Assembly (NCBI GenBank): GCA_013519935.1
Contig: JACDUA010000012.1
Location: 1 to 64,000, forward strand
Source of the DNA: Ectothiorhodospiraceae bacterium WFHF3C12
GTDB taxonomy: Bacteria > Pseudomonadota > Gammaproteobacteria > Nitrococcales > Nitrococcaceae
DNA: 64,000 nt
Direction of reading: 5' to 3'
Below the pieces are notes generated by a model. That model was given only the letters and a program-made list of their open reading frames with translations. It ran no database searches and had not been told where the DNA came from. Shown one piece after another: positions 1,370 through 29,969 of the stretch. The position numbers were made by a program, and so were the translations under genes. Numbering within the stretch: position 1 is the stretch's first letter; every line of letters begins with the position of its first letter.

Positions 1370-2331
1370 TGTCGGGCAGCGCCGCAGGGGTCGTCCACGT
1401 TGCCGTGGGTGTCGTGGCGGATGGCCAGGGGCGCGTTCTGTTGGCCCAGCGGCACGCCGGCACCCATCAGGGTGGCAAATGGGAGTTTCCCGGCGGCAAG
1501 GTGGAGCCGGGAGAACACGTCGTGGCGGCGCTGCGCCGAGAGCTCGCCGAAGAGATCGGGATCATCGTTGAAGCGACCGAGCCCCTGGTCCGCATTCCCC
1601 ACGACTATGGTGACAGGCATGTCGTCCTCGACGTTCATCGCGTGACCGCTTTCCGCGGTGACGCCCGCGGCCTGGAGGGCCAGCCGCTGGAGTGGGTGCA
1701 GCCGGCCGACTTGCCTCGCTTCGATCTACCCGCCGCCAACCGGCCCATCACGGCTTTTCTGGCGCTGCCCAGGGCCTGCCTGGTCACGCCGGAGGTGGCG
1801 AACGCCGACAGGTTCCTCGCGGGAATCGGTGACGCCTTGCGAGGCGGAACGCGTTTCGTGCAATTGCGCCGCCATGACCTCGCGCGGGAGGAACTGTTGG
1901 CCGTGATCCGGGATGCGCGGGACCTCAGCCGGTCGGCCGGTGGGGTGCTCGTGGTGAACGCTTCGCCGGAGCTGGCGCTGGAATCCGGTGCCGATGGATG
2001 CCACCTGAGCGCCCGCGCCGCTGCCGGCTATTCGCCGGGGCGCCGGCCGCTGCCGCCCGGCGCCTGGCTGGGTATCTCGTGCCATGATCGCGCCGAAATC
2101 GAACACGCGCTCAGCCTGAGGGCGGACTACCTGTTCGTATCCCCCGTGCAGCCGACACCGACCCATCCGGATGCGGTGCCGCTGGGCTGGCACGGGTTAC
2201 GGGCGTTGATCCGCGACGTGCCGGTGCCCGTGTTTGCCCTTGGCGGTGTCGGACCCGCCGCGCTGGAGACCGCGCGGCGCCACGGTGCCCATGGAATCGC
2301 CGCGATTCGTGGTCTTTGGCCCCGGCGCTAG
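1369..2331 (+). CDS. mutT: Nudix hydrolase (MutT-type) fused to a thiamine-phosphate-synthase-like domain
   Basis: 320 residues. Residues 7-130 form a Nudix domain with a complete box (G43-X5-E49-X7-R57-E58-L-X-E61-E62-X-G64-I), as in MutT enzymes that sanitise 8-oxo-dGTP. Residues 137-318 resemble ThiE (TMP synthase): FVQLRRHD, ADGCHLS, SCHDRAEIEHA, ADYLFVSPV and FALGGVGP follow the TIM-barrel order of that family. Fused Nudix-ThiE proteins are known next to argJ and secA in pseudomonads and relatives. Canonical ThiE motifs are altered (LRRHD for LREKD, and no clear TKT phosphate loop), so activity of the second half is uncertain. The ATG shares one base with the argJ stop. Confidence 0.9.
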   Translation: MSGSAAGVVHVAVGVVADGQGRVLLAQRHAGTHQGGKWEFPGGKVEPGEHVVAALRRELAEEIGIIVEATEPLVRIPHDYGDRHVVLDVHRVTAFRGDARGLEGQPLEWVQPADLPRFDLPAANRPITAFLALPRACLVTPEVANADRFLAGIGDALRGGTRFVQLRRHDLAREELLAVIRDARDLSRSAGGVLVVNASPELALESGADGCHLSARAAAGYSPGRRPLPPGAWLGISCHDRAEIEHALSLRADYLFVSPVQPTPTHPDAVPLGWHGLRALIRDVPVPVFALGGVGPAALETARRHGAHGIAAIRGLWPRR

Positions 2332-2352
2332 CCGCCCGGGCACAGTCGTTTC

Positions 2353-2568
2353 CTAGCCCTCGTTGGCTGGATCGTCCCCGTCGCTGATCCGGCCGATGGA
2401 TTCGTCATCGAGGTCCGGGCCCGCGATGTGGTGACTGCCGTCGAACCAGCGCCCGAGATCCACCAGCTTGCAGCGTTCGCTGCAGAAAGGGCGATAGGGA
2501 TTGTCCGTGCTGTATTCGTAACGTTCGCCGCAGGCGGGGCATCGGGCCTGGACGGGCTGCTGCGCCAT
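2353..2568 (-). CDS. yacG: DNA gyrase inhibitor YacG (zinc-ribbon protein)
   Basis: 71 residues. The single zinc ribbon uses C10-X2-C13 and C29-X3-C33 (ARCPACG and FCSERCK), followed by KLVDLGRWFDGSHHIAG, which is the YacG signature. In E. coli YacG binds GyrB and blocks DNA binding. The tail from about residue 52 is acidic, as is usual. It is the last gene of the pilB-pilC-pilD-coaE-zapD-yacG strand and converges on the Nudix gene, with about 21 bases between the stops. The start is the ATG at 2566-2568; the same frame reads open upstream but that extension lies inside zapD. Confidence 0.92.
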   Translation of the reverse strand: MAQQPVQARCPACGERYEYSTDNPYRPFCSERCKLVDLGRWFDGSHHIAGPDLDDESIGRISDGDDPANEG

Positions 2569-2641
2569 TAGGCGGTTTCCTCCTCTGGTCACGTGACGGA
2601 GCGCGGTTCGGGTCCCTCGCCGGGCTCCCGATGGGTGTCGG

Positions 2642-3409
2642 CTAGAGCACGCAACACGATAGGCGAAAGCTGATATCCCGCTCGGTCTGCTGTGGACGGT
2701 GCTCCCCCACCCCGTGTTCCATGAAGCGGATCGTGCAGAAGTGCCGGTTCGCCGATATTTCGGCGAAAACGCCTTCGTCCTCGAGCGGTTCGACGCGAAT
2801 GAGCTGGAACGGAGTGTTGCGATCCAGCGTCCGTTGATAGGCACCGCCTTCGGCATTGAGATCGCGCGGCACGGCGCTGCTGCGGAGCAGGGAGAGAACC
2901 ATGTCCGTTGCCCGGCGCAGTACGTCGAGCTTCTCGAGCCAATCACCGAGCTGCGCGCGGCGCTCCTCGGCCGGACGGTGCAGCCAGTGATGGTAGCCGG
3001 GCAGGTCGAAGCCACACGTGCCGCCGACGATGCCGCTGCGCTGCATGATGGTATTGAGGAATTCGTTGGCCTTGAGTTCCGTGGCCGGGTTGAATCCGGT
3101 GGATCGCAACTCCTCCATCAGCTTCTGGGACTCGCGCAGGTAGTCGGACAGCCGCGCATCGTCGACCTCGGGGCGTTCCTGCCAGCCCTCCAGGGTACCG
3201 TACAGCCGCTCGAGCTCCTTGATGAGCTCGGAGCGCAGATCGCCGCGCCCGAGCAACGCCAGGATGTCCAGCACGGTCTGAACGGTGATCCGCGTGTGCC
3301 ACTCGGTATCGCCGTCCAGTCCGAAGGCAACCTGCTCGAACAGGAATTCCAGGCGCATGAGTGTCCGGATGCGCTCGTTCAGAGGTTGCTCGAAAACGAT
3401 GGGTGTCAT
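2642..3409 (-). CDS. zapD: Cell division protein ZapD (FtsZ-bundling factor)
   Basis: 255 residues. The protein begins MTPIVFEQPLNERIRTLMRLE and carries conserved FNTIMQRSG-like and CGFDLPGYHHWL segments of the ZapD/YacF (DUF1342) family. ZapD crosslinks FtsZ filaments at the Z-ring. The ATG at 3409 is chosen because family members start with this short N terminus; an upstream ATG at 3505 would add 32 residues of low-complexity sequence. It lies between coaE and yacG, the classical coaE-zapD-yacG trio placed downstream of pilD. Confidence 0.93.
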   Translation of the reverse strand: MTPIVFEQPLNERIRTLMRLEFLFEQVAFGLDGDTEWHTRITVQTVLDILALLGRGDLRSELIKELERLYGTLEGWQERPEVDDARLSDYLRESQKLMEELRSTGFNPATELKANEFLNTIMQRSGIVGGTCGFDLPGYHHWLHRPAEERRAQLGDWLEKLDVLRRATDMVLSLLRSSAVPRDLNAEGGAYQRTLDRNTPFQLIRVEPLEDEGVFAEISANRHFCTIRFMEHGVGEHRPQQTERDISFRLSCCVL

Positions 3410-3520
3410 AGTGGCGGCGTCGGCGGTTGATGATCCAGGCAGAAGCCCTCCATTCTCGCCCATCGGTGTGTGATCACTCAAACGTGGTTCGCCCCGTTCG
3501 TCCATTGCCGCCGCGCTCAG

Positions 3521-4147
3521 CTATGTTTCTCGGGTGCGCTCCGAGGCCATCTCGAGATACCGACGGTGCAGCGTATCCACCTGTTCGTGGAGATCCGCCA
3601 ACGATCCGTCATTGACGATCACGTCGTCGGCCCGCTGAAGCCTGGTCTCGCGGCTCGCCTGTGCGGCCATGATGGACTGGGCCTGGTCCCGGTCGATGTT
3701 ATCCCGGGCCATCACGCGCCGCAGCTGTGTCTCAACAGGCACATCGATCACCAACACGCGGTCGACCACATCCGCCATGCTACCCTCGACCAGCAGCGGA
3801 ACGACCAGCACCACGTAAGGTCCCTCGGCTCGCGCAACGCGCTGCATGGATTCCGCGCCGATCCTCGGGTGGAGAATGGCGTTGAGGTCGGAGCGGGCTT
3901 GTGGGTCGGCGAAAACACGCTCTCGCAGACGGCGGCGGTCGAGCCGGCCCTGCTGATCAAGAATGCCGCGGCCAAAGCGTGCCACGACGGCTTTCAGGCC
4001 GTCGGTTCCAGGTTCCACAACGTCCCTGGCGATGCGGTCCGTGTCGACGATGCTGGCCCCCAGCTCGGCCAGGCGGTCCGCGACGGCCGACTTGCCACTG
4101 GCGATGCCGCCCGTCAGGCCGATCAGGAGCTTTCTGTCTCGGCTCAT
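3521..4147 (-). CDS. coaE: Dephospho-CoA kinase CoaE
   Basis: 208 residues. It catalyses the last step of coenzyme A synthesis, the ATP-dependent phosphorylation of the ribose 3'-OH of dephospho-CoA. The N-terminal P-loop GLTGGIASGKS occupies residues 10-20; DTDRIARDVV and the lid region DNIDRDQAQSIMAAQ are typical of the family. Length matches the usual 200-210. It is 35 bases downstream of pilD on the same strand, as in many gammaproteobacteria. Confidence 0.96.
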   Translation of the reverse strand: MSRDRKLLIGLTGGIASGKSAVADRLAELGASIVDTDRIARDVVEPGTDGLKAVVARFGRGILDQQGRLDRRRLRERVFADPQARSDLNAILHPRIGAESMQRVARAEGPYVVLVVPLLVEGSMADVVDRVLVIDVPVETQLRRVMARDNIDRDQAQSIMAAQASRETRLQRADDVIVNDGSLADLHEQVDTLHRRYLEMASERTRET

Positions 4148-4182
4148 GGGTAGCTGCGCTCCTATCCCGGGTCGCGATCAGT

Positions 4183-5061
4183 CTAAGCGAGGCCTGCCCA
4201 CCGGAGATAGGCATCGGTCAGGTCATGCCGGTAGAGCAGCGCGACCCAGCCGGCGGCGGCCAGATAAGGGCCGAAGGGTATGGGAATGTTCCGGTCGTGG
4301 CCGCGGGTGAGGATCAGCGCCACGCCGACCACGGCCCCCACCAGCGATGAGAGAATGATGATGACCGGCAGCGCCTGCCAGCCCATCCACGCGCCAAGCA
4401 TTGCCAGCAGTTTGAAGTCGCCGAAGCCCATGCCCTCTTTGCCGGTGAGCAGCCGGAAGAGCTGGAATACCGACCACAGTGACAGGTAACCGGCGGCCGC
4501 TCCGATAATAGCCGACTGCATGTCGGCATAGAGGCCGGCCAGGGAGCCCAGCAGGCCCAACCACAGGAGTGGAAGAGTGAGATCGTCGGGGAGTATCTGG
4601 TGATCCAGGTCTATGACGCTGAGCGCGATGAGCACCCAGGTCAGCAAGAAGCCGGCTCCAGCCTCCCAGCCGAAGCCGAAGTGCCAGGCAACGGCCGCCG
4701 TCAGCAACCCGGACAGGCCCTCCACCAGCGGGTAGCGGAGCGATATCGCATTGCCGCAGGCGCTGCAGCGGCCCCGCAGAAGCAGGTAGCTCAGTACCGG
4801 AATGTTTTCCCAGGCGCGGATGCGATGGCCGCAGCTCGGACAGGTTGAAGGCGGCCACCACAGCGATGTCGATTGGGCGGGCTCACCATTGGCATCGGGG
4901 ATATCGAGGAGATCGCGGCACTGGGCGCGCCAGTCGGCCTCAAGCCGCTGCGGCATACGGTGAATGATGACATTGAGGAAGCTGCCCACCAGCAGACCGA
5001 GCACGAGAGAGACACCAATGAATAGTGCCGGGGTGCTCGCGAGTACTGAAACCACGTCCAA
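4183..5061 (-). CDS. pilD: Type IV prepilin peptidase / N-methyltransferase PilD
   Basis: 292 residues. This is an inner-membrane aspartyl protease that cleaves the leader of type IV pilins and type II pseudopilins and N-methylates the new N terminus. The cytoplasmic methylase loop has the zinc tetracysteine C74-X2-C77 ... C99-X2-C102. The catalytic Asp regions are VIDLDHQILPD (residues 149-159) and GMGFGDFK (Asp215 in GxGD). About seven to eight hydrophobic segments are present. Its likely substrates in this window are FimU, PilV, PilW, PilX, PilE and the FimT-like protein at 22371-30550. It lies 92 bases downstream of pilC. Confidence 0.96.
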   Translation of the reverse strand: MDVVSVLASTPALFIGVSLVLGLLVGSFLNVIIHRMPQRLEADWRAQCRDLLDIPDANGEPAQSTSLWWPPSTCPSCGHRIRAWENIPVLSYLLLRGRCSACGNAISLRYPLVEGLSGLLTAAVAWHFGFGWEAGAGFLLTWVLIALSVIDLDHQILPDDLTLPLLWLGLLGSLAGLYADMQSAIIGAAAGYLSLWSVFQLFRLLTGKEGMGFGDFKLLAMLGAWMGWQALPVIIILSSLVGAVVGVALILTRGHDRNIPIPFGPYLAAAGWVALLYRHDLTDAYLRWAGLA

Positions 5062-5153
5062 AACTCAGCTCCGGAACCGGGCGGATGGAGCGGCCGCGGT
5101 GCCTTTCCCGCGGCCGGCTGGATTCTTCTTCTGTCGACGAAGTCGAGCCGCAG

Positions 5154-6374
5154 TCAGACGACCTGGCCAAGCTTGAATATCGGCAGGTACATGGCGACAA
5201 CAAGGCCGCCCACCAGGATGCCGAGTACCGCCATGATCATCGGCTCCAGCAGGCTGCTGAGGCCATCAATCGCGGCGTCCACTTCCTCTTCGTAGAAGTC
5301 CGCGACTTTTGCCAGCATGCTATCTACCGAGCCGGCCTCTTCGCCGATCGCGACCATCTGCACCATCATGGTGGGAAACAGATTGGTCTGCTTGATGGCC
5401 CACTGGAGTTGCTGACCCGAGGCCACCTGATCCTGCATTTCCTTTACCGCCTGGCCGTAAACCACGTTACCGGTAGCGCCTGAAACGGAATCCAGTGCCT
5501 CCACCAATGGCACACCGGCCGCGAACATCGTGGACAGGGTTCTGGCAAAGCGGGCCACGGCCGCCTTGCGGACGATGTCCCCGATGACCGGAATCTTCAG
5601 AGTCAGCTTATCCATGAAATGGTTGAACTTCGGTGATCGCCGCTTCGCCTGAGTGAACGCGATGCCCGCACCGATCAGTCCGCCGAATATGAGGTACCAG
5701 TACGCCTGGAAGAAGTTGGACAGATTGATGACCAATTGCGTGAACGCGGGCAGGTCGGCTCCGAACCCCTTGAAGAGCTCGGCGAACTGCGGTACCACGA
5801 AAATCAGGAGTATCGCGGTGACGACAAAGGCCACAACCAGAACGGCCGTCGGGTAGAAGAGCGCCTTTTTTATCTTCTTCTTTATGGACTCGGTTTTTTC
5901 CTTGTAAGTGGCGATCTTGTCCAGAAGCGTGTCCAGAACACCGGCCTGTTCGCCGGCGTCCACGAGATTCACGAATAACTCGTCGAAGTAGTAGGGATGC
6001 TTCGAGAGCGCTTCGTGGAGTGACGTGCCTGCCTCGACGTCGGTCTTTATCGACTGCACGAGTTCTCGAAGGCTGGGATTCTCGTGACCCTGGGCGATGA
6101 TTTCAAACGCCTGCACAAGCGGAACCCCGGAGGCCAGCATAGTGGCGAGCTGGCGACTGAAAACAGCGATGTCTTCCGTGGTTATTCGTTTCTTCCGGGT
6201 GCCACTGAAGAGAGTGGACTTCTTGCGAATCCGACGGGCGCTGATGCCCTGGCGGCGAAGTTGCGCACGCAACGCGGCCGGGTTGGCGGCCTGGTTCTCT
6301 CCCTTGACCTTGGCACCATTCTTGTCGGCGCCCTCCCACGAAAAAGTGGCAAGCTTCACTGCTTTCTGTGCCAT
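5154..6374 (-). CDS. pilC: Type IV pilus inner-membrane platform protein PilC
   Basis: 406 residues. The protein has two tandem T2SSF domains (roughly 70-195 and 275-400), each with conserved FSRQLATMLASGVPL / FARTLSTMFAAGVPLVEAL repeats, separated by long hydrophobic segments. PilC sits in the inner membrane and is turned by the PilB and PilT ATPases to add or remove pilin subunits. The N-terminal FSWEGADKNGAKVKGE is typical. The gap to the upstream pilB gene is 5 bases, so pilB and pilC are co-transcribed. Confidence 0.97.
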   Translation of the reverse strand: MAQKAVKLATFSWEGADKNGAKVKGENQAANPAALRAQLRRQGISARRIRKKSTLFSGTRKKRITTEDIAVFSRQLATMLASGVPLVQAFEIIAQGHENPSLRELVQSIKTDVEAGTSLHEALSKHPYYFDELFVNLVDAGEQAGVLDTLLDKIATYKEKTESIKKKIKKALFYPTAVLVVAFVVTAILLIFVVPQFAELFKGFGADLPAFTQLVINLSNFFQAYWYLIFGGLIGAGIAFTQAKRRSPKFNHFMDKLTLKIPVIGDIVRKAAVARFARTLSTMFAAGVPLVEALDSVSGATGNVVYGQAVKEMQDQVASGQQLQWAIKQTNLFPTMMVQMVAIGEEAGSVDSMLAKVADFYEEEVDAAIDGLSSLLEPMIMAVLGILVGGLVVAMYLPIFKLGQVV

Positions 6375-6379
6375 GTCCG

Positions 6380-8107
6380 TTATTCTCGGGTCACGCGGTT
6401 GATTTCATCCAGGCTGGTTACGCCTTCTTTCACCTTTCGCAGGCCGGACTGCCGAAGGTCACGGATGCCCTCTTTGGCGGCCTGTTTGCCCAAATCCATG
6501 GCGTTGCCCCCTTCCATGATGATGCGGCCCATTTCCTCTGAAACCGGCATGACCTGATAGATGCCCACGCGACCCTTGTAACCCCCGGCGCATTGGTCAC
6601 AGCCATCGGGATTCGGCGCGAAGACCGTGAACTCTTCGGCCAGATCCTTCTCGGTGAACCCTTCTTCCAGGAGGGCCTCCCGAGGCACGTCGATCTTGTG
6701 CTTGCACTGCTTGCACAGCCGGCGCGCCAGACGCTGGGCGATAATCAGGTTCACCGCCGAGGCGATGTTATACGGCGGCACCCCCATGTTCATCATACGG
6801 GTCAGCGTCTGGGGCGCGTCGTTGGTGTGCAGCGTCGATAGCACCATATGGCCGGTCTGCGCGGCCTTGATGGCGATCTCCGCCGTCTCCAGATCGCGGA
6901 TCTCACCAACCATGATCACGTCCGGATCCTGGCGGAGGAAGGAGCGCAGTGCGCCCGCGAAGGTCAGGCCGGCCTTGGGGTTGACGTTGACCTGGTTGAT
7001 GCCCGTGACGTTGATCTCGACCGGATCCTCCGCGGTGGAGATGTTGCGGTCATCCGTGTTGAGGATATTCAGCGCCGTGTACAGGGATACCGACTTACCG
7101 CTGCCCGTCGGGCCGGTTACCAGGATCATCCCGTACGGCTTATGAATGTTACTGAGGAAGAGCTCCTTCTGATCGGCCTCGTAGCCGAGCTGCTCGATAT
7201 CCATCTTCGCCGCGGACGGGTCGAGGATACGCAGCACCAGCTTCTCGCCGTAGACGGTCGGGCAGGAGCTGACACGGAATTCGATGGACCGGTTGCGGGA
7301 CAGGTTCATCTTGATGCGACCGTCCTGCGGTACCCTTCGCTCGGCGATGTCCATGCGGGACATGACCTTGAGCCGGGCGGAAATGCGCGGCGCCAGGGTC
7401 ACCGGCGGTGCCGCCATCTCCTGGAGCATGCCGTCCTGGCGGAAGCGCACGCGATAGCGCTTCTCGTAGGGCTCGAAGTGGATATCGGAGGCGCCGCGGT
7501 TGATGGCGTCCAGCAACACCTTGTTGACGAAGCGGACCACCGGGGCGTCGTCCGCCTCTGGGTCCGCGTCCCCGCCTCCGGCGTCGTCGTCGTCGCCGGA
7601 GGTGATGTCGAGGTTTTCCAGGTCCTCGTCCAGATCCATGTCCGCCATGGCGCTGGAGCTGGACGTCAGCGCGGTCTCAATGGCCCGGACCAGCTTGTCT
7701 TCCTCGACCAGGACGGCGTCGGTGGTCAGGCCGGTGTGGAACTTGATCTCGTCGAGGGCTTCCAGGTTCGTCGGATCGGCCACGGCCACGAACAGACGCT
7801 TGCCCCGCTTGATTAGCGGCAGCGCCCGGTGGTGGCGTATGAGCTTCTCCGTGACGAGGGATACCTGCGCCGTGCCCAGGTCCATGCTGTCCAGATCGAA
7901 CAGCGGTACACCGAATTCCTGGGCGGAAGCCTGGGCGATATCTCGCGCCGCCACGATGTTCTTTTCGACCAGATAGGAGACCAGCGGCAGCTTGGCCTGC
8001 TTGGCGTCCTGGATGGCGTCCTGCGCCTGATTCTCTTCCAGGAACCCGTCGCGCACCAGGCGGCCGGCGAGGCCGCCAATCTTGACTGTGGGGTTTGCAG
8101 TGGCCAT
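6380..8107 (-). CDS. pilB: Type IV pilus extension ATPase PilB
   Basis: 575 residues. This is the cytoplasmic hexameric ATPase that powers pilus assembly. An N-terminal MshEN-type domain (about 1-145) is followed by an acidic linker (about 156-190) and the ATPase core. Walker A is GPTGSGKS (332-339), the Asp box contains ILNTDDRNISTAEDPVE, Walker B is DPDVIMVGEIRD (395-405), and the zinc tetracysteine uses C465, C468, C503 and C506. MshEN-like domains can bind cyclic-di-GMP in some homologues, which is relevant to the FimX-like gene upstream on the same strand. The major pilin gene is not adjacent. Confidence 0.97.
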   Translation of the reverse strand: MATANPTVKIGGLAGRLVRDGFLEENQAQDAIQDAKQAKLPLVSYLVEKNIVAARDIAQASAQEFGVPLFDLDSMDLGTAQVSLVTEKLIRHHRALPLIKRGKRLFVAVADPTNLEALDEIKFHTGLTTDAVLVEEDKLVRAIETALTSSSSAMADMDLDEDLENLDITSGDDDDAGGGDADPEADDAPVVRFVNKVLLDAINRGASDIHFEPYEKRYRVRFRQDGMLQEMAAPPVTLAPRISARLKVMSRMDIAERRVPQDGRIKMNLSRNRSIEFRVSSCPTVYGEKLVLRILDPSAAKMDIEQLGYEADQKELFLSNIHKPYGMILVTGPTGSGKSVSLYTALNILNTDDRNISTAEDPVEINVTGINQVNVNPKAGLTFAGALRSFLRQDPDVIMVGEIRDLETAEIAIKAAQTGHMVLSTLHTNDAPQTLTRMMNMGVPPYNIASAVNLIIAQRLARRLCKQCKHKIDVPREALLEEGFTEKDLAEEFTVFAPNPDGCDQCAGGYKGRVGIYQVMPVSEEMGRIIMEGGNAMDLGKQAAKEGIRDLRQSGLRKVKEGVTSLDEINRVTRE

Positions 8108-8345
8108 GTCTAAAGCTTTTGCCGTCTCTGGTGTAGCCCTCGGGGTTTGATTCCCTCGCGCCTTGCCCTCGTGGCGGCCGGTACCTCGGTTCTTTTGATG
8201 GGCTACGTCGCTTATGGACTATAACCCATGGAAAAGCCTTGTGTAACCGGCGACAGACACAGCGCCACCGGTAACCATGCGGCGCTCGACATGCCTATGG
8301 GACCATGCGAATCTTCGGGATTCTGTGCGTTCCATCTCATCACAC

Positions 8346-8370
8346 GCGCCGATTCCCCGGAAATCGGCGC
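8346..8370 (-). terminator. Hairpin just downstream of the FimX-like gene
   Basis: A perfect 9-bp stem (GCGCCGATT / AATCGGCGC, loop CCCCGGA) begins 3 bases after the stop of the 8373-10379 gene in its direction of transcription. No T-run follows, so it may be a weak or Rho-assisted terminator or a 3'-end protecting structure rather than an intrinsic terminator. It would separate the FimX-like transcript from pilB, whose start is 265 bases further on. Confidence 0.4.
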
Positions 8371-8372
8371 GA

Positions 8373-10379
8373 TCACCCGAGGCTCTCTTCCTGGCCGGCG
8401 AAGACGTCGGCCGGCTCCTGCATGAAATACCCCTGTATGTATTCGACGCCGGATTGCCACAAGGCGGAAAGGACCACGGCGTCCTGCACCTGGGCAGCAA
8501 TGGTCGCGATCCCCAGCCCCCGCGCGTGGCCCGTCACCTCGCTCACCTTCTTCTGCGCCTGCCTGTCGATGTGGGCGGAGTCACTGATGCTCGGCGAGAG
8601 CTTCACGTAGTCGGGCCTGAGCGTTTCGAGCAACTCGTTGCCCGCCTCGTCCGGGTCGAAATTCTCGACGGCCACGGCGAACCCGGCCTCCCGCAGGGCG
8701 TTGCAGAAAGCGCGCACCTCGCCCGCGCGCGTGACAACGGTTCGGTGCGGAATCTCGACGACGAGCCGGTCAGCCGGCAGGCCCGCCGTGCGGGCCTGGT
8801 CGATGATCCATCCGGCCAGGTTCTGCTCCGAGAGGCTTTCCGGGAACACCTTGACGAACAGGCGCGCCTGATCCAGGCGGCCCGCATGCTCGGATAGAAC
8901 ATGGATGGCCCGGGTAATGATCCAGCGGTCCAGCATTGCCGACAGCCCGGCGCGTTGGACGGCCGGCAGGAACTCCCGGGGCAGGATGTCGCTGTCGTCG
9001 TCGTCGAGCATGCGCACGAACACCTCGAACAGGGCGCTGGGCTGCCCATTAAGGCTGGATATGGGCTGATACACGAGCCTGAAACGGTCCTGGCGCAGGG
9101 CTTCCTGCACCCGGCTGCCCCAGAAATCCCCGAGATCGGTACTCGCGGCGCTCACCGCTTCGGCTTCCGGAGTGCGGGCCCCGGACTGGGGGTAGGCCCG
9201 CCGGGCGGCCTCCAGTGCGCCTTCAACGGTCTTTGCCTTGCCATCGAGAACCGCGACGCCGATCTGCGGCGCGGTGTGCCCGAGATCGGCCATGCCCTGC
9301 CGAAGCCCTTTCGCTACGGCTTCGAGCGCCCGCTCCGACGGTACCGAAAAGGCCGCTGCAAGCATGTTGTCCCCGAGTCTCGCGGCCGAGGCGAAGGGCG
9401 GGAGCTTGCGGCGCAGGACGTCCGCCGCCCGGACCAGCCCCGTGCCGTCGTCGGGCGCCGTGAATTCGGCCAGGGCCACGCCGGCGTGGGTCCGCTCGAA
9501 GGCCCCGGTCGCCAGGCTCTGGCTGAGCCCTTCCACGAACTGGCTGGCGGTCTGCAGTCCCGTCATCGGATCCCGGGTGGCGATGAAGCGAAACGCCTCG
9601 CGGAGCGTCGAGGCGCGCCGGATACGCCCTTCCACGATGGCCTCCAGGTCCTCCGCGGCCACCGGGAGACCGAGAACGCCGTCAGCGCCCTCGGCCGCTA
9701 CCAGCTCATCCAGGGCACGCTTGTCACCGCCGGTGCACAGCAGAACCGGTACGACGCTGAGGGGGTGAATCTGGCGTATCGTGCGTAACAGTGCGCCAGG
9801 CTCGAATTGCGCCATGTCGGCGTCCAGGAGGATCAGTTGCGGACTGGCCCGCTCCGAAACCTCCAGAAGCTGATCCGGCGGGACCACCTCGCAGTCCCAG
9901 CCTCGCTCGAGCAGTGCCGTCCGCCGCTGCGCCAGGGCCGAATCCGCGTCGGTGAGCATGACCACGCGCCCGTTTTCCCCGGCGCCGTCGCGGCGAGCGT
10001 GCCTGAGCTCGTAGATCAGCGTCATCAGGCTCACCGGGCGCGTGACGAAAGCCGCACTTCCCGCCCGGGCCGCGTTGAGCCGCGTCTCGAAGTCGCCCTG
10101 TTCGGATAGAAACAGGACCGGCGCTATCCGACCCAGGGGCTGCGCCGATGCCCAGTCGAGACCATCCTGTCCGAACAGTGCCGTGTCCAGGATGAAGCTC
10201 CCGGGCGGGGCGCTACGCGCAGCGTTGCCCATGACGTCCAGGCTGACGAAGGTGCGCGCCTTGAAGCCATAGTGCCGAAGGTCGAAGGCGATCGAGGCGC
10301 CCAGTTCGGAGCTCTGGGTGCACAGATAAACCGGGCGTTCACGCGCCGCGGGCAGCTCGTTGCCAAAGAGATCGCTCAA
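8373..10379 (-). CDS. FimX-like regulator: two degenerate REC domains, degenerate GGDEF and EAL domains
   Basis: 668 residues, no membrane segment. Residues 15-130 and 137-255 look like two receiver (REC) folds (FILDTALFG; QLILLDADMA, Asp186-Asp188). Residues 265-400 are a GGDEF-type fold whose active-site signature is replaced by LGDNM. Residues 415-660 are an EAL fold with EVF (452-454) in place of EAL, KVFPES where the catalytic Asn normally sits, and ENFDPDEAG in place of DDFGTG, but with YVKLS and QGYFMQEP retained. This predicts a cyclic-di-GMP receptor rather than a cyclase or phosphodiesterase, as for P. aeruginosa FimX, which promotes pilus assembly with PilZ and PilB. The location immediately upstream of pilB supports that. 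FimX has a PAS domain, not seen here, so orthology is inference. Confidence 0.8.
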   Translation of the reverse strand: MSDLFGNELPAARERPVYLCTQSSELGASIAFDLRHYGFKARTFVSLDVMGNAARSAPPGSFILDTALFGQDGLDWASAQPLGRIAPVLFLSEQGDFETRLNAARAGSAAFVTRPVSLMTLIYELRHARRDGAGENGRVVMLTDADSALAQRRTALLERGWDCEVVPPDQLLEVSERASPQLILLDADMAQFEPGALLRTIRQIHPLSVVPVLLCTGGDKRALDELVAAEGADGVLGLPVAAEDLEAIVEGRIRRASTLREAFRFIATRDPMTGLQTASQFVEGLSQSLATGAFERTHAGVALAEFTAPDDGTGLVRAADVLRRKLPPFASAARLGDNMLAAAFSVPSERALEAVAKGLRQGMADLGHTAPQIGVAVLDGKAKTVEGALEAARRAYPQSGARTPEAEAVSAASTDLGDFWGSRVQEALRQDRFRLVYQPISSLNGQPSALFEVFVRMLDDDDSDILPREFLPAVQRAGLSAMLDRWIITRAIHVLSEHAGRLDQARLFVKVFPESLSEQNLAGWIIDQARTAGLPADRLVVEIPHRTVVTRAGEVRAFCNALREAGFAVAVENFDPDEAGNELLETLRPDYVKLSPSISDSAHIDRQAQKKVSEVTGHARGLGIATIAAQVQDAVVLSALWQSGVEYIQGYFMQEPADVFAGQEESLG

Positions 10380-10615
10380 AGGACATCCCCCTCAAAATCG
10401 CTCCGCGATACTCTCTTGTGCTGTTTATCGGCAGGTATCGCGCAAACACAACGTCGGGTGGCCCGGCGCTCGCGAACGAATCCGGTTAAATCGCGAGCGG
10501 CATCACACCCCGCGTTGCGCCCGACGATAGCACAGCGGGAACGGGACGAAATGTGCGGCAGGTCGTCAGAAGAAGGTGACGGACCGCGAAAGCGCGAAGA
10601 GGGAAACGGTGGAAA

Positions 10616-10692
10616 TGGTCGGGGTGACTGGATTCGAACCAGCGACTCCTGCCTCCCGAAGACAGTGCTCTACCAAGCTGAGCTACACCCCG
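10616..10692 (-). tRNA. tRNA-Pro (anticodon CGG)
   Basis: On the minus strand the cloverleaf is complete: acceptor CGGGGTG/CACCCCG, D-arm GCTC..GAGC, anticodon stem CTGTC/GGCAG with loop TTCGGGA (anticodon CGG, reads CCG), T-arm CTGGTTCGAATCCAG, discriminator A and an encoded CCA at 10616-10618. It lies 17 bases downstream of ispB on the same strand, so it may be processed from an ispB transcript. Confidence 0.96.
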
Positions 10693-10709: not shown

Positions 10710-11678
10710 TCAGTAACGCCGATCCACCGCGAACCGGACCAGACGTTCAAGGGCTTCGCGGAACTCGCTGCCCGGGACGCCCGACAGGGCCTGGACGGCT
10801 TTATCCGCCTCCTGATCCGCAGCGCGGCGAGTATAGGCAATGGCGCCCGTGTTTTCAATCGCCTGTTGAATGGCCTCGACATTGTCCAGGCCGCCTTCCT
10901 CGATGGCGCGACGCAGTAATGCGGCCTGCTCACCGTCCGACTCGCGCAGCGCATGGATGAGCGGCAGCGTGGGCTTGCCTTCAGCCAGGTCGTCGCCGAG
11001 ATTCTTGCCTGTCTCATTGACGTCGCCGCCGTAATCCAGGGCGTCGTCGACGAGCTGAAAGGCGTTGCCCAGGTGCAGCCCATAAGCGGCCAGTCCCTCC
11101 GTGACCTCGTCCGCCGCGCCGCAGATGAGCCCGGCGCAACGACAGCCCGCTTCGAACAAGGTGGCGGTCTTGCGGTAGATGATCTCGCGATAGCGATCCT
11201 CGGTGACATCCGGATCGTGGCAGTTCATCAACTGCAGCACTTCGCCCTCGGCGATGACGTTGGTCGTGCGAGCCATCACGGCCATGATGGCCATGCTCTC
11301 CAGCTCCACCATCATCTCGAAGGCCCGGGAGTAGAGAAAATCACCGACCAGCACGCTGGCCTCGTTGCCCCAGACGTGGTTGGCCGTCTCCTGGCCGCGC
11401 CGCAGCCGGGAGTCGTCGACGACGTCGTCGTGGAGCAGGGTGGCCGTGTGGATGAACTCGATGACGGCCGCCAGGGGAAGGTGTTTGTCGGCGGGGTCGC
11501 CGGCAGCCCGCGCCGCCATCAGGACTACAAGCGGGCGCAGCCGTTTGCCGCCACTGTTGACGATGTAGGCGCCCAACTGGTTGATCAGGGCCACGGAGGA
11601 GCTCAGGCGTTCCTGGACCAGCCGGTTGACGGCCTCCATGTCGTCTCGGACCGGGGCGCGGATCTCTTCCAGTTTCAT
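10710..11678 (-). CDS. ispB: Polyprenyl (octaprenyl) diphosphate synthase IspB
   Basis: 322 residues. This trans-prenyltransferase extends farnesyl diphosphate with isopentenyl diphosphate to make the side chain of ubiquinone. Both Asp-rich motifs are present: LLHDDVVDD (first, substrate and Mg binding) and QLVDDALDY (second). SGGKRLRPLVVLMAARA is the usual N-terminal IPP-binding segment. The ATG at 11678 gives MKLEEIRAPVRDDM and the usual length of about 322; an extension upstream would run into the divergent rplU promoter. The ispB/rplU divergent pair is a classic gammaproteobacterial arrangement. Product chain length cannot be read from sequence alone. Confidence 0.95.
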   Translation of the reverse strand: MKLEEIRAPVRDDMEAVNRLVQERLSSSVALINQLGAYIVNSGGKRLRPLVVLMAARAAGDPADKHLPLAAVIEFIHTATLLHDDVVDDSRLRRGQETANHVWGNEASVLVGDFLYSRAFEMMVELESMAIMAVMARTTNVIAEGEVLQLMNCHDPDVTEDRYREIIYRKTATLFEAGCRCAGLICGAADEVTEGLAAYGLHLGNAFQLVDDALDYGGDVNETGKNLGDDLAEGKPTLPLIHALRESDGEQAALLRRAIEEGGLDNVEAIQQAIENTGAIAYTRRAADQEADKAVQALSGVPGSEFREALERLVRFAVDRRY

Positions 11679-11771
11679 CGGTTTCGGAGTCGGGGCCAGA
11701 ATGAGTTCCGGAATGCTAGGGTCGACCCCGGGGGGTGTCAACCAGACCGCGCGGCCGCCCGCAACCCGCAT

Positions 11772-11800
11772 TTGACCGTGGCGCCGGGGCCGGATAGAAT
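11772..11800 (+). promoter_or_regulatory. Sigma-70-type promoter of rplU-rpmA
   Basis: A -35 box TTGACC (11772-11777), a 17-bp spacer and a -10 box TAGAAT (11795-11800) predict a transcription start near 11807. It is the only good promoter in the ispB/rplU divergent gap and is suitably strong for ribosomal protein genes. Confidence 0.75.
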
Positions 11801-11813
11801 TTCGCGCCTTACA

Positions 11814-11845
11814 AAGGAAACGCTGAACCATTCCCGCGTTTCCTT
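11814..11845 (+). promoter_or_regulatory. 5'-leader hairpin of the rplU mRNA
   Basis: A perfect 10-bp stem (AAGGAAACGC / GCGTTTCCTT) with a 12-nt loop lies about 7 bases after the predicted transcription start and ends 29 bases before the rplU ATG. Its placement at the very 5' end, with no T-run after it, fits a ribosomal-protein autoregulatory leader or a 5'-stabilising structure rather than a terminator. Leaders controlling L21 operons are known in other bacteria; similarity to those is not established here. Confidence 0.5.
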
Positions 11846-11874
11846 GGCTCCCGATACGATGTGGAGAAGTATTC

Positions 11875-12186
11875 ATGTACGCGGTGATCAAGAGCGGCGG
11901 CAAACAGTATCGCGTTTCCGAGGGCGACGTGCTTCGCGTCGAGAAGCTGGACGCGGAAGAGGGCGCTGCTTACGACTTCAAGGAAGTCCTGTTCGTTGCC
12001 GACGGGGATGACGTCAAGGTGGGTGCGCCGATGCTCGACGGCGGCAAGGTGTCGGCGGAGATCGTGCGCCACGGCCGCAACCGCAAGATCGACGTCATCA
12101 AGTTCAAGCGGCGCAAGGACTACCAGCGCAAGCACGGTCATCGCCAGCACTTCACCGAGGTCAAGATCACCGGCATCAGCGCCTGA
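11875..12186 (+). CDS. rplU: 50S ribosomal protein L21
   Basis: 103 residues. Starts [25 protein letters not shown] and ends with the basic [23 protein letters not shown] tract that contacts 23S rRNA; the length is exactly that of E. coli L21. It is first in the rplU-rpmA operon, 25 bases before rpmA. A purine-rich GGAGAAG lies upstream of the ATG. Confidence 0.99.
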
Positions 12187-22370: not shown

Positions 22371-22922
22371 TCAAGGGCAGTTAAGATCATCACTTTTCGC
22401 CTTGCGAATGCGCCCGCTCATGGACAGCACAAACCCTCTGTCCCTGACATCACTCGCTGCGCTGCATATGGAAAGAGTGCCGGCATAGCCGGTCGAGAAG
22501 CCCGTGGGGTGGAAACGGGCGCGACTTGCAAGCAGCCCGTTTCCCGTGATGCTCAGGCCGGATTCCACGGTTGTATGGACGCTGAGGATCTCACCGCGGT
22601 GACCATCACAGTGGGCGTCATTGTCCGCATCCACGCAGTTCGATGCGCCATCCGGGGCCGAAAACGCCAGCCAGCCCTGATGCCAGCCGCCGGTAGTCGC
22701 GCAGCCTCCGGATGCCGAGCCTTTGCATAGAAAGACATCTACGCCGCGGGTCACGGCTTCGGAACGGGCCATGTGTAGGTCGACGAGTAGGCGATTGGCG
22801 GTTGTGTTCGCTTGCTGGTCCCTGACCAGGCTCATGAACGACGGTGCCACCAATGCCGTGAGCGTTGCGGCTACGCTGAGCGAAACCAGCAATTCGGGAA
22901 GCGTGAATCCGGTGCGCTGCAT
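22371..22922 (-). CDS. fimT: GspH/FimT-family minor pseudopilin
   Basis: 183 residues. The prepilin leader MQRTG is cleaved before FTLPELLVSLSVAATLTALVAPSF, the class III signal with Glu at position +5; PilD would process it. FMSLVRDQQANTTANRLLVDLHMARSEAVTRG is the GspH/FimT N-terminal helix region. The C-terminal half has several Cys residues and a DADNDAHCDGHRGE stretch rich in Asp. It is last in the minor-pilin operon, 102 bases after pilE. In P. aeruginosa FimT is dispensable for pili; FimT homologues in some species bind DNA for natural uptake, but I see no basis here to claim that. Confidence 0.8.
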   Translation of the reverse strand: MQRTGFTLPELLVSLSVAATLTALVAPSFMSLVRDQQANTTANRLLVDLHMARSEAVTRGVDVFLCKGSASGGCATTGGWHQGWLAFSAPDGASNCVDADNDAHCDGHRGEILSVHTTVESGLSITGNGLLASRARFHPTGFSTGYAGTLSICSAASDVRDRGFVLSMSGRIRKAKSDDLNCP

Positions 22923-23024
22923 CGTCTGTCCTCCATGACGCGACGATTCAGAAAGATGTAAACGCTAGCTCCTTTTGGCCCTTCGATTTTCCTTGAATCC
23001 TGGTGGCAGTCAACCTCTGCTCGC

Positions 23025-23480
23025 TCAGCAGGAGTCGTCCCAGCAGTCCTCGCCGGCGTCAATGGCGCCATTATTGTTCCGGTCCCACCTCCGCGCGCCG
23101 GCATTGGTCAGCTCAAGGTAACCGTCCCCGACCTGGCCGTTGATGGGGGTGGCCCTCAGTACATAGCTGTCCGAAGACGGCAGCGTCTGAATCGTCAGGT
23201 CGTAGAACTTGCGGTTGCCATCCAGCGGTGCCTGCGTGGGGAAAATGTCCGGCGCGCCCGTGTCTGCCCCACCGGCTGCAGCACCTTCATAGCTAAGGTT
23301 TTCCGTGTAGTAGCGCTCCATAGCGGCGGCAAGGCCGTTGAGCGCCCCCATGGCGTCAGTGCGACGAGTCTCGGTGACGTGGGTTTGATAACTTGGATAG
23401 GCGATACCCGCCAGGATTCCGATTATCGCTACCACGATCATGAGCTCAAGGAGGGTGACTCCCTTTTCTCTTGCCTGCAT
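23025..23480 (-). CDS. pilE: Type IV minor pilin PilE
   Basis: 151 residues. A short leader (MQAREKG) precedes VTLLELMIVVAIIGILAGIAYPSYQTHV, a canonical type IV pilin N terminus with Glu5 and the PSYQ segment typical of PilE. The C terminus carries DRNNNGAIDAGEDC followed by CWDDSC, so a Cys pair can close the D-loop and an Asp/Asn loop could bind calcium. PilE proteins of this type are part of the priming and tip complex. It follows the small secreted protein gene by 28 bases. Because the major pilin is not in the window, it could in principle be a structural pilin, but its place after pilY1 argues for minor pilin. Confidence 0.88.
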   Translation of the reverse strand: MQAREKGVTLLELMIVVAIIGILAGIAYPSYQTHVTETRRTDAMGALNGLAAAMERYYTENLSYEGAAAGGADTGAPDIFPTQAPLDGNRKFYDLTIQTLPSSDSYVLRATPINGQVGDGYLELTNAGARRWDRNNNGAIDAGEDCWDDSC

Positions 23481-23508
23481 CGTCTCGGTTCTCTGCTGTC
23501 GATACGGT

Positions 23509-23874
23509 TTAATTCGGCTGCCAGCGGCCTGGCCGTAACATCCAGATTTCCACCACCCGAGCGGCGACCTTGTCTCCCGCCGGCACCGTGATCAATCCAA
23601 CGAGGCTTCCCTTCGGGATACGGCTGATGTATTGCGGCTCGCCTTCAGTATCGAAGGCCTTCGTGCCAGGAGAAACGGAATACTTCAGGGCGTCGACTTT
23701 GATCCGTCCGGTGCCGTCCGTGCTCTGGGTATAATGTCCTACTTCGTCAAATTGACGCGGTGCATTCGGTGGCCGATCCGTGAACCGTTCGCCGTCGGTC
23801 GCCGACTCCTCAGCCTGAAGAGGGGCAAGGCTCACGGCGAAAACCACCAGGGCTACCAGATATAGATATCGCAT
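23509..23874 (-). CDS. Small secreted protein in the PilY2 position
   Basis: 121 residues. A cleavable signal peptide is evident (MRYLYLVALVVFAVSLAPLQA, cut before EES), so the mature protein of about 100 residues is periplasmic. The sequence is hydrophilic with GRIKVDALKYSVSPGTKAF and KGSLVGLITVPAGDKVAARVVEIWML; there is no Cys and no lipobox. I do not recognise the family. It lies 15 bases after pilY1 and 28 before pilE, exactly where P. aeruginosa has pilY2, so a role in pilus biogenesis is likely from context only. Confidence 0.75.
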   Translation of the reverse strand: MRYLYLVALVVFAVSLAPLQAEESATDGERFTDRPPNAPRQFDEVGHYTQSTDGTGRIKVDALKYSVSPGTKAFDTEGEPQYISRIPKGSLVGLITVPAGDKVAARVVEIWMLRPGRWQPN

Positions 23875-23889
23875 TATCCCTTCCTTCCC

Positions 23890-26800
23890 CTATTCGTCCA
23901 CGACTTCCCGCCAGGAATGCCGGCCGATGGGGCCTGTTGTTTCCGTGTTGGTGCGGATGCTGCTGACCTCGTCGCCCACCTGGGTGACACGCAGATTGCC
24001 GATGAAACCGGCATCGGTTGGTACACCGCCCTCGAGACGGCGGCCCGTGACCACGTTCTCGGCGCTGGAGTCGCCATCAACGTTGTCGTTCAAATCGAAC
24101 ACGCCGTCGTTGTTCATATCGAATACGACCTTGTCGGGGCGGCTGCCGCTGAAGGGGTCCAGCCCGAGCTCGAAACCGCCCGGCCCCGATTCGCAGGGGT
24201 TGGCCGCCTTCGGAATGATGGTGTTCACGAACAATATATCGCCGCGAACCTGGAGGTTGCGCACCGCCCGCTCACCGGGGAACTCCGGCGGATCGCCAGC
24301 CGAGCCGCCCGCGGCGGGCATGTCCAGATCGATATACCAGCCGCGCTCCTGGTTGCTGCCGTTGTTGTTCCAGCTGATGGGATTGTCGCTGGAGGTCCGG
24401 ACCACGAATCCGTGCACCGGATCGACCTCGTTGGTAAAGGTCTGTTCCGTCAGGTCGTCGCGAGCGACGTCGGCCGTGGAGTTCAGATTACCGAGGTCAT
24501 CCCAGATACCGTAGATAGACTGGATCTCTTCGCTGGTGCGGTCATCGTTGGTCATCCAGCTGCCCGTTGCCGTGATGATAACGAAGCCGGGTTCGCCCGG
24601 CAGCGGGTGGTTCACCGCAATCGGGGCCGTGGTGATGGGTTGTACCGGGTCGGCCGTCGCCGCGTCGCCGTCATCGTAGGTCGCCTGGAACAGCACCCCA
24701 TCGTAGCTCCAGTTGGACGGCGACGTATTCGTGAGGTCGAAGCGCATGAGGTGGCCCTGCAGGTCACCGGCATAGACGTAGTCCGCGGTGCCGTTGCCGT
24801 CGCTGTCGATCACGCGGATGTCGCCGATGCCATTGGGTGTAGTGGCGTCGAGGTGGGGCATGCTGGCCGAGTTGTACTCTGCCATGCCGAAGCCGGTGTT
24901 GAGCTTGTAGTAGTCCGAACCCAACGACCACGTGCCGTCCTGGCCTTCCTCGATGAAGGCGACGAACAGCTTGGCATCACCGGCGGCCGCCGTGCTGTTG
25001 TAGCCGTTCCCGAAAATTGCCACCCAGCGCTTGTTGCCGCTGCCGTCGTCGGCGTTGGACATGGTGATGACCGGCTCGCTGAACGTATAGCCGAGGTCGC
25101 TATCGTCGGCGTTGGTGAATTCCCATAGCACCTGGTTGCTGGCCGTCGTTTCGTCGGTGAAATTGCCCGGGTTCGTGATGTCCAGTGCGAAGTAGCCCCG
25201 TCCACCCGCACCGGCGCCGCCGATGAGGACCGTATGCCATCCGCCGCCGCTCAACGACGGGGCAAAGATGTCGTTGATCGCGGGCGAAGCATCGACGAAG
25301 AAGCGATGGTTGTACTCCGGGTCCGCCAGGGCCGGAAGTCCCGATTGCAGGAACTCCGGCACGTACGCAAAGAGCTCTGAACCGGCGGGATTGCCGCCGG
25401 ACGCCTCGGCCCGAAAGGCATGCAGCATGCCGTCATTCGCTCCGACGTAAACCAGTGGTGAACGGTTGAGCTGGCTCTCCTTGAATTCCGCGTAGGTGTT
25501 GGGACTCACCGCTGGCCAGCTGCCGCCATTCCGGCCGGAAAACTCCGGCGCGCCAACGTAGACCGGCGATGAGTGTGTAATATCGCCGAGCTTGCCGGCC
25601 GTGACCGGGCGGTCCCGAAGATCGCCGGCATTGACGTCATCGCCCTCGTGCTGGCTCTGGCCGCGCACCCATTCAAGTCGCTCATCGCCGATACCGCCGT
25701 TGTCGGTACGATCCGCGTCGGTCACGTTCGAGCGTGTCGGCGTGTGCAACGCCGTCTGCTGCGTGGCGGTCAGATCCCCCCATGCGAAGGGGATGCCCGC
25801 GGAATTGGCACTGTCATAGGTAATTATGTTGCGGCTATCGCTGTCGTCGTCCGTCTGGTTGTCCAGCTCCTGGGCCGCGCTCCACAGGTTCGCGCTGGTG
25901 TCAATTGTGCCGTCAGCGAGGATTTCCTGGGCGACGAGATCGCCGGTATTGGTCTCGGTGTCGTAGAACGCCCGAAACACCACGGAGTCCGTACGGATGT
26001 TCTGGGTGTTGAACGCCACGGCCGAACCGGTGCCCACACCCTGCTGGATTTCCTCGAAAACGTCATTGAGCGCGTCCACCAGCTCCTGCGGGTTGCCCGC
26101 GCTCAGGAACTGGCCCCGGCCGTTGTACGCGGCGTGGCGCAGATCGTCGATGCGGTGCAGGCGATTGGTACTCGGATCCGGCCAGCTGGTGCTGGTGTCA
26201 TCGGGACCAGACGGCATCGACGTCAGAGTCCCGTTAACGCCGAAGCCGATCGTGTAAGTGCCCATGTGCTGGTGCATGATTTCGCCCAGATCTCCGGTGC
26301 CCCGATAAAGGAGGCGGTCACGGCTCGTGGTCGGCACCTGATCCGGCAAGCCGGAGAGATCGTTCTTGTAGAAGTACATGGCTACGTCGGCCAGGGTTTC
26401 GTCGTAGCTGTCGGCGAAGGCGCCTCCGGAAAAGTCACCCGTGGGCTGGTCCTCATTGTCCATATCGTTGGGATCGCCGCCGTTGTAGAACCCGTCCGTC
26501 ATGAGAATGGTGTAGTTCTGCTGGCAGGCTCCCCCTTCCGAGGACGACAGAATCGGGCAGTCGTAGTCCGCTCCGTCGCCGAAAAAGCTGTTGTCCTCGC
26601 AGGCAAAATACCGGCCCACATCGCGCAGGTTGGTCCGCAGCGGCGTGCCACCGGATGAGTTCGTCTGGTACAGCTGATCCAGCAGGCCCTGTTTTTCACC
26701 GCTTCCGGCGGAGACGTTCATGGTGGCGACCTCCCGCCCACTTACGCTGCCATTAATGGTGCCGTACCCGATCCTTGCTGAGGTGGCATCGCGTACGACT

Positions 26801-27699: not shown

Positions 27700-27739
27700 G
27701 GGATTACCCCCGAAAATGCGCGTGCCAGAAATGGCCCAG

Positions 27740-28339
27740 TTAGAGTCGTTTGCCGTAGGTCGATTGCAGTATCACCACGGCATTGTCCGAGCCACCCGTG
27801 GCGCGGACAGTGATACGGAACAGGTCGACGTTCCCGGCGCCAGTACCCTCGCCGTAGTTGCCGATGTTGAGCTTGTTCTCTTCCGAGGTGACGGTGCCGT
27901 AATGTTCGATCACGAAGAGCGGATTGCTGCCCGGCCCCCCGCTCTCGCCGACGGCGTCGTAGCTGTATACGAGCGGGCCGGTGCCCGACCAGTTCACGTG
28001 TCGCCAGATCTGCGCGTCGTCGCCATCGACGTCGCCATCCCCGTCTAGGTCCACACTTTCCGAGTAAAGCCCGTCATCACCGTTGGCGTCGAAGCCGGCC
28101 AGAGTAATGACGTTGTTGTCTATGTATGCCTCCGCACCGCGGATGCCCGCTTCGGCGGCTTCGAAGGCGATCTGCCGGTCGCGCAGATTGCCGGCCATGC
28201 GCTCCTCGAGCACCGTGTTCCGAAGCGAGGTCACACCGATCAGCGTCATGATCAGGAGAAATATGAGGCTCACCGTCAGGGCCGCGCCGCGCTGGCTGAT
28301 TGTCGGTTTCTTCGTTGCCACAACGTGCACCATCTTCAC
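27740..28339 (-). CDS. pilX: Type IV pilus minor pilin PilX
   Basis: 199 residues. The N-terminal QRGAALTVSLIFLLIMTLIGVTSL lacks the Phe1-Glu5 pattern of most pilins but matches the PilX/GspK-like family (QRGAAL start), followed by NTVLEERMAGNLRDRQIAFEAAEAGIRGAE. PilX is in the priming complex with PilV, PilW and FimU. A DANGDDG...DLDGDGDVDGDDAQ tract around residues 108-130 resembles dockerin or EF-hand calcium loops. The start overlaps the pilW stop: GTG at 28339 (GTGA overlap), with an in-frame ATG at 28333 as an alternative. Confidence 0.9.
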   Translation of the reverse strand: MKMVHVVATKKPTISQRGAALTVSLIFLLIMTLIGVTSLRNTVLEERMAGNLRDRQIAFEAAEAGIRGAEAYIDNNVITLAGFDANGDDGLYSESVDLDGDGDVDGDDAQIWRHVNWSGTGPLVYSYDAVGESGGPGSNPLFVIEHYGTVTSEENKLNIGNYGEGTGAGNVDLFRITVRATGGSDNAVVILQSTYGKRL

Positions 28340-29445: not shown

Positions 29446-29450
29446 CTCGC

Positions 29451-29969
29451 CTAGATCTCCGTGTTGATGCTCAGATCCTGGACGTTGTCATCGCGATCAT
29501 TCCAGCGGATGGTGACGGTGAATTCGTTTCCGTTCCGCTCGATCGCGCCTTGGCCGCCCGGCAACACACCGGTAATGCCGAGGTTCTGGCATTCGGTGTC
29601 GTCGTTCCAGTTGCCCAAGGTGCATTGCCAGGTATTCAGGTCGAAGTCGGCAAGCTGTGCCGGGGTGCAGGTGCTGTTACAGGTCTGGTTGCTGTCCGGT
29701 TCCGTTCCCATAGCCCAGTCGTAGTCCCCGTTGATGGCCGCCTCGCGATTGGCGCGCATGCGATCGATTATGTCGTACGCCATGTACGTTGCCTGAGAGC
29801 GTAGGTAGGCACTCTGATTGAAGCGAAGCCCCTGGGCCTGCATGGCAGCCAGTCCAAGCAGTCCCAGAGAGAGCACCAGCAGGGCCACCAGAACCTCGAT
29901 CAGGGTAAAGCCCGACGCTTGCCGCGCCGGACGGGTCGATAGCAGACGCACCTGTGAAGCCTCCTTCAT
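29451..29969 (-). CDS. pilV: Type IV pilus minor pilin PilV
   Basis: 172 residues. The leader MKEASQVRLLSTRPARQASG precedes FTLIEVLVALLVLSLGLLGLAAMQAQGLRFNQSAYLRSQATYMAYDIIDRMRANR, the PilV family pattern. Four Cys residues (CNSTC, WQC, ECQN) could form two disulfides in the globular domain. The ATG overlaps the fimU stop by 4 bases (ATGA). PilV, PilW, PilX and FimU prime pilus assembly and carry PilY1 to the tip. Confidence 0.92.
   Translation of the reverse strand: MKEASQVRLLSTRPARQASGFTLIEVLVALLVLSLGLLGLAAMQAQGLRFNQSAYLRSQATYMAYDIIDRMRANREAAINGDYDWAMGTEPDSNQTCNSTCTPAQLADFDLNTWQCTLGNWNDDTECQNLGITGVLPGGQGAIERNGNEFTVTIRWNDRDDNVQDLSINTEI

Follow-up and report, generated by a model that had tools for sequence, protein, structure and literature searches.

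A second, divergent FimX-type protein with degenerate REC, REC, GGDEF and EAL domains is encoded beside pilB in a gammaproteobacterium

In Pseudomonas aeruginosa, the binding of FimX to the motor protein PilB depends on ligand (PMC5595344), and FimX increases pilus extension (PMC12533971). In Xanthomonas citri, PilZ forms a bridge between PilB and the EAL domain of FimX (PMC8389850). The route from FimX to PilB is disputed, being direct and ligand-dependent in P. aeruginosa and running through PilZ in Xanthomonas. A second EAL protein of Xanthomonas, PdeR, acts via FimX (reviewed in PMC11656802). For the REC-GGDEF-EAL protein PD1671 of Xylella, the reported phenotype concerns gum genes and biofilm, and pilB is unmentioned in that report (PMC4374697). 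Our literature search returned nothing on FimX in the bacterial group considered here or on a FimX relative carrying two REC domains, which is not proof of absence.

The window analyzed here, a 64,000-nucleotide stretch from Ectothiorhodospiraceae bacterium WFHF3C12, carries on its minus strand a single open frame (positions 8,373-10,379) with a TTG start, 5′ of which inspection reveals the purine-rich stretch GAGGGGG. The predicted 668-residue protein, designated FimX2, matches the Pfam models EAL (1.1e-46, residues 423-656) and Response_reg (3.5e-11, split over two stretches), with no match to PAS; its GGDEF fold has no Pfam match in the window copy, and that of the orthologue at L019 is matched at 2e-5. 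With 16 relatives as input, AlphaFold gave a model (mean pLDDT 83) whose strands and helices follow one another as expected for REC, REC, GGDEF and EAL. The first-pass annotation had described four eroded domains with LGDNM in place of GGDEF, EVF in place of EAL, and QGYFMQEP and YVKLS retained; the Pfam matches to REC and EAL and the modeled domain succession bear out the former, and the motif readings are correct. The top solved match in a PDB sequence search is P. aeruginosa FimX (1.7e-39), and a fold search likewise ranks Xanthomonas and Pseudomonas FimX first, by their EAL domains (Z 29.4-32.2; rmsd mostly 1.8-2.8 Å over about 228-256 residues, with 3.8 Å for the top row), the alignment rows covering mainly residues 267-666. 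PleD is also found among the fold matches, for its tandem-REC architecture. No FimX model is present among the NCBIfam matches listed for FimX2 or for the canonical FimX described below, and a search of a plasmid collection gave no match.

The same genome encodes a canonical FimX (FimX1), a 712-residue REC-PAS-GGDEF-EAL protein on contig C146 of G000 (L015, positions 3,615-5,753) that matches P. aeruginosa FimX in the PDB at 8e-86. When the GGDEF-EAL portion of P. aeruginosa FimX is used as the query, FimX1 scores 276 bits and FimX2 136 bits, which is below the 160-167 bits of two ordinary GGDEF-EAL proteins (L016 and L017); with the Xanthomonas FimX EAL domain alone, FimX1 and FimX2 score similarly, at 129 and 124 bits. 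The possibility that FimX2 is this organism's own FimX is ruled out, since the canonical protein resides elsewhere and is matched about twice as well by P. aeruginosa FimX. As to architecture, it is the C146 protein that has the domain order of a FimX orthologue, whereas FimX2 has two REC domains and lacks PAS. Because the genome has FimX1, FimX2 represents a second, divergent FimX relative, separate from the canonical protein, and not a FimX in which PAS has been exchanged for REC. Directly 5′ of FimX1 lies a gene (L015, positions 1,857-3,614) for a 585-residue protein with no Pfam or NCBIfam match, whose C-terminal part appears PilZ-like by eye. In P. aeruginosa, FimW is encoded together with FimX, and this protein could be its counterpart. 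Among the canonical FimX proteins of the order (L040-L064), position 477 is mostly Arg, replacing EVL (EAR in the copy of this genome), and His or Asn mostly replaces Tyr673, so the FimX1 pocket is altered too.

On the minus strand the genes follow in the order ispB, tRNA-Pro(CGG), FimX2, pilB, pilC, pilD and zapD. The octaprenyl diphosphate synthase gene ispB (10,710-11,903) and the tRNA gene (10,616-10,692) form the left flank of what proves to be a conserved slot; on the other side are pilB (6,380-8,107; TIGR02538, 870 bits against a cut-off of 676), encoding the type IVa pilus extension ATPase, the platform protein gene pilC (5,154-6,374) and the prepilin peptidase gene pilD (4,183-5,061; identified by Pfam). 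FimX2 precedes pilB on the same strand, in agreement with the linkage originally claimed, with 265 bp between them (8,108-8,372). This gap holds a sigma70-like site, GTTACA-18-TATAGT (8,247-8,218), a consensus match only, and the predicted site might drive pilB alone. The window PilB is the only one above the curated cut-off in this genome (168 contigs, 100% complete), and it has residues equivalent to R103 and F108. A type IV pilus PilZ is likewise present (L034; 7e-45 to Xanthomonas PilZ; C-terminal THTM), with equivalents of the Xanthomonas FimX- and PilB-binding residues I10, F49, L51 and W69, and Tyr at F28. Also on the minus strand (22,371-30,550), 12-20 kb away and extending to near tRNA-Thr, is a minor-pilin cluster comprising fimT-, pilV-, pilW- and pilX-like genes (by eye), pilY1 (1,269 residues) and a gene for a GspH-type pilin. 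It includes a ComP-type minor pilin, whose match to the ComP/DUS-receptor model (3.8e-18) may concern DNA uptake.

A FimX2 profile searched over 54 genomes of the order recovered 12 full-length matches spanning the whole profile (525-885 bits) and one EAL-only match (405 bits); next came FimX1 and other GGDEF-EAL proteins, at 373 bits or less and mostly with coverage of GGDEF-EAL only. In G041 and in G023, ispB is flanked by a further short copy of the form REC1-EAL; these two were assigned to FimX2 by position and pocket residues (Gln at 654). FimX2 is thereby found in 15 of the 54 genomes, all 15 being among the 27 with a PilB above the curated cut-off and none among the other 27 (Fisher 4e-6, for genomes that are related and hence non-independent). 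In a GGDEF-EAL tree, FimX1 and FimX2 each form one clade (support 100/99 for each), and either alternative placement of the Pseudomonas and Xanthomonas FimX proteins relative to these clades gives an AU p of 0.08-0.09. FimX2 also occurs outside the order, in family f108, with no pilB nearby within the stretches examined there. A second kind of FimX relative has the architecture Hpt-REC-REC-GGDEF-EAL (L083, positions 8,122-10,587), its receiver sites being intact and its PFVEE loop of the FimX type; it is found in genomes that also have FimX.

The usual position of FimX2 is between ispB/tRNA-Pro and pilB. At four other loci (L019, L020, L027 and L028) the gene is directly 5′ of pilB, and in three of these (L019, L020 and L028) it is still flanked by ispB and tRNA-Pro on the opposite side. 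The recurrence of orthologues with the same domain order and location argues that FimX2 is not a chance arrangement. At the two family f2 loci, L023 and L024, FimX2 and pilB lie about 8 kb apart. Of these loci L024 was annotated, and its intervening genes specify a sigma54 regulator, a TRAP transporter, an SDR and an AMP-ligase. In G032 and G045, ispB-tRNA-Pro adjoins pilB directly, with FimX2 absent from the slot. The copies vary considerably in content: L070 encodes 598 residues with a shrunken GGDEF domain, L087 and L088 lack REC2 and GGDEF, and L028 consists of EAL only (293 residues), so that EAL is retained in all of these reduced copies. Domains have been lost repeatedly and independently. 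The genes contain no internal stops, and dN/dS is 0.15-0.27 overall, 0.08-0.11 for EAL and 0.36-0.60 for GGDEF; FimX2 is under purifying selection.

The EAL domain (residues 420-661; 8,397-9,122, minus strand) has lost its catalytic residues and kept those of the ligand pocket. In the window copy the EAL motif is E452-V-F, DDFG reads ENFD (572-575), and YVKLS (591) and QGYFMQEP (649) are present. At the catalytic positions, Lys510, which is invariant in the family, occupies the place of the metal-binding Asn of active enzymes, E572-N573 that of the DD pair, and Q632 that of a Glu. Erosion is not total, as E542 is retained at an active-site Glu position that is Gln in most relatives. With the metal-binding Asn, DD and Glu set missing, FimX2 was rejected as an active phosphodiesterase. 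The GGDEF fold (9,195-9,581, minus strand), which is under less constraint than any other domain of the family, reads ARLGDNM at the motif site (residue 333), and the motif is absent from every FimX2 row; a PleD-like diguanylate cyclase, which would carry GG(D/E)EF, was rejected likewise. Judged by residues only, FimX2 has neither a phosphodiesterase nor a cyclase center.

Comparison of the EAL domain with FimX, for which the cyclic-di-GMP contact residues of the P. aeruginosa protein were taken from PMC3527489 and PMC12292220, shows that the pocket, unlike the active site, is mostly retained. The 15 pocket-bearing FimX2 rows are invariant at Q461, E475, R479, P490, D507, K533, Q654, Q671, G672 and Y673. 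Over the ten contact columns mean entropy is 0.32, as opposed to 1.52 for the EAL domain, and none of 20,000 random column sets is as low. Since all EAL families conserve their pockets, this conservation alone does not name the ligand. The guanine-stacking F652, for which 23 of 25 FimX1 proteins of the order carry Tyr or Phe, is mostly Leu in FimX2 and otherwise Gln, Ser, His or another non-aromatic residue, and E654 of FimX is Gln in every copy; affinity or ligand may therefore differ. The suggestion of the first-pass annotation that FimX2 is a cyclic-di-GMP receptor gains from the near-invariant pocket columns and loses from the absence of the stacking Phe in every copy. The only well-preserved part of the protein is, by its residues, a pocket of the cyclic-di-GMP-binding kind, and binding of cyclic-di-GMP by this altered pocket is plausible. 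The X. citri FimX residues that contact PilZ are only partly present; they were discarded as a discriminator, because W445 is shared with ordinary EAL proteins and the others are not retained.

We favor a reading, to which we assign a probability of roughly 55%, in which FimX2 is a catalytically dead, nucleotide-binding EAL effector of the type IVa motor PilB, acting beside the canonical FimX. Its EAL domain, the presumed working part, would bind cyclic-di-GMP with altered base stacking and without metal chemistry; the ligand-bound domain would dock on PilB, directly or via PilZ, and by analogy with FimX would promote or tune extension. The two pseudo-receivers may serve dimerization or polar placement, as is thought for the degenerate REC of FimX, with no part in phospho-signaling. 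This proposal is supported by the dead centers, the retained pocket, the signature of purifying selection, the physical link to pilB and joint occurrence with it, and the presence of PilZ and PilB partners in the genome, and is weakened by the replacement of F652 and E654, the partial X. citri PilZ contacts, the promoter-like site of pilB, the gap of about 8 kb in f2, and f108. Its strongest competitor is a scaffold that docks constitutively on PilB or PilB-PilZ, cyclic-di-GMP binding having been lost. The disappearance of the stacking aromatic and E654 from every copy would fit such a protein, as would the G003 copy (L071, positions 2,389-4,224), a 612-residue open frame at the conserved slot in which the EAL domain (28.9 bits, below the Pfam cut-off) has no EAL glutamate, no QGY and few of the pocket residues. 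The near-invariance of the remaining pocket residues in 15 rows speaks against it, and we regard a ligand-free scaffold as unlikely.

Somewhat less likely still is the possibility that FimX2 would hetero-oligomerize with FimX1, or compete with it for PilB-PilZ, to yield a graded response. Canonical FimX is found in 13 of the 15 genomes with FimX2, and the two exceptions are genomes that are 78% and 82% complete. FimX1 is also the nearest homologue of FimX2 within its own genome (5e-37, with the runner-up at 8e-27), and PdeR offers a precedent, though PdeR is active (PMC11656802). Against this, many PilB genomes carry FimX1 without FimX2.

The original proposal of a receptor gated by phosphorylation fares far worse. 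The window copy has Asp at each phospho-acceptor position, D65 in REC1 (residues 14-133; 9,981-10,340, minus strand) and D186 in REC2 (residues 136-262; 9,594-9,974, minus strand; family signature GDKR...GLP), and in the distant relatives L082 and L083 both receivers have the full phosphorylation residue set, preceded in L083 by an Hpt domain, an arrangement that may resemble the ancestral one. Both receivers of the window copy nevertheless lack the acid pocket and the beta5 Lys, which is Arg (R114) in REC1 and Leu in REC2. Across the FimX2 rows, REC1 has Asp in most, an acid pocket that is mostly lost and the beta5 Lys in one row only; REC2 has Leu for this Lys in nearly all relatives and D, H, T, N, S or R at the phospho-acceptor position, so that few share D186. 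REC2 has been dropped by two short copies and both receivers by one. With the residue set of a phospho-accepting response regulator (DD pocket, Asp, Thr/Ser, Lys) incomplete, FimX2 was rejected as a member of that class; the degenerate or variable acid pockets and phospho-Asp positions and the lost Lys make a phosphorelay input unlikely, and phosphorylation gating very improbable. What stands of the FimX-like reading in the first-pass annotation is a dead, FimX-related EAL protein linked to pilB, in which REC is doubled and PAS is absent; its phospho-relay-like input does not. Decay of a gene without function, to which repeated domain loss, the pocket-less copy and the empty slots might point, deserves hardly any credence given dN/dS, which already weakens it, the uninterrupted frames and the conserved pocket.

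What makes FimX2, a variant of known FimX-type regulators, of interest is that a second FimX-type protein is conserved at pilB and that its copies form a natural deletion series, and not a phosphorelay. The series, which runs from four domains through REC1-EAL to EAL alone, some with changed pockets, reveals which parts selection keeps; coming from pilB-bearing genomes that mostly have FimX too, it supplies ready minimal versions for motor-binding tests. In the FimX2 pocket the catalytic set is replaced by Lys, Glu, His and Gln, and the stacking aromatic is absent. A broader idea, which we hold tentatively and consider doubtful, is that FimX2 constitutes a second pilB-linked branch of motor receptors in these gammaproteobacteria, its rewired pocket sensing another nucleotide or concentration range than FimX, and that it is evolving toward EAL alone.

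Among described systems, the FimX proteins of P. aeruginosa and X. citri (REC-PAS-GGDEF-EAL) have degenerate REC, GGDEF and EAL domains in common with FimX2, as well as the EVL/EVF motif and Q461, E475, R479, P490, D507, K616 and Q671-G672-Y673; FimX regulates PilB, and FimX2 is linked to pilB. Unlike FimX, FimX2 has two RECs and no PAS, replaces F652 and E654, forms a separate clade, and is encoded beside pilB in a genome that also has canonical FimX. PleD-type REC-REC-GGDEF regulators share the tandem REC followed by GGDEF, and one from the same genome (L018) is 32% identical to FimX2 over residues 15-295; FimX2 differs in lacking a cyclase motif and a full phosphorylation site and in having EAL. 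PdeR, a GGDEF/EAL/REC phosphodiesterase, provides a second EAL protein acting on FimX-PilB, as FimX2 is proposed to be, but is active and phosphorylation-dependent, whereas FimX2 lacks catalytic and phosphorylation residues. Degenerate GGDEF-EAL receptors of the LapD and CsrD type resemble FimX2 in that a non-catalytic EAL domain serves for binding (LapD); LapD, however, is a membrane protein, and the FimX2 EAL domain scores lower against this type than against FimX. PD1671 combines degenerate GGDEF and EAL with an N-terminal REC, as does FimX2, but differs in its single REC with a predicted phosphorylation site.
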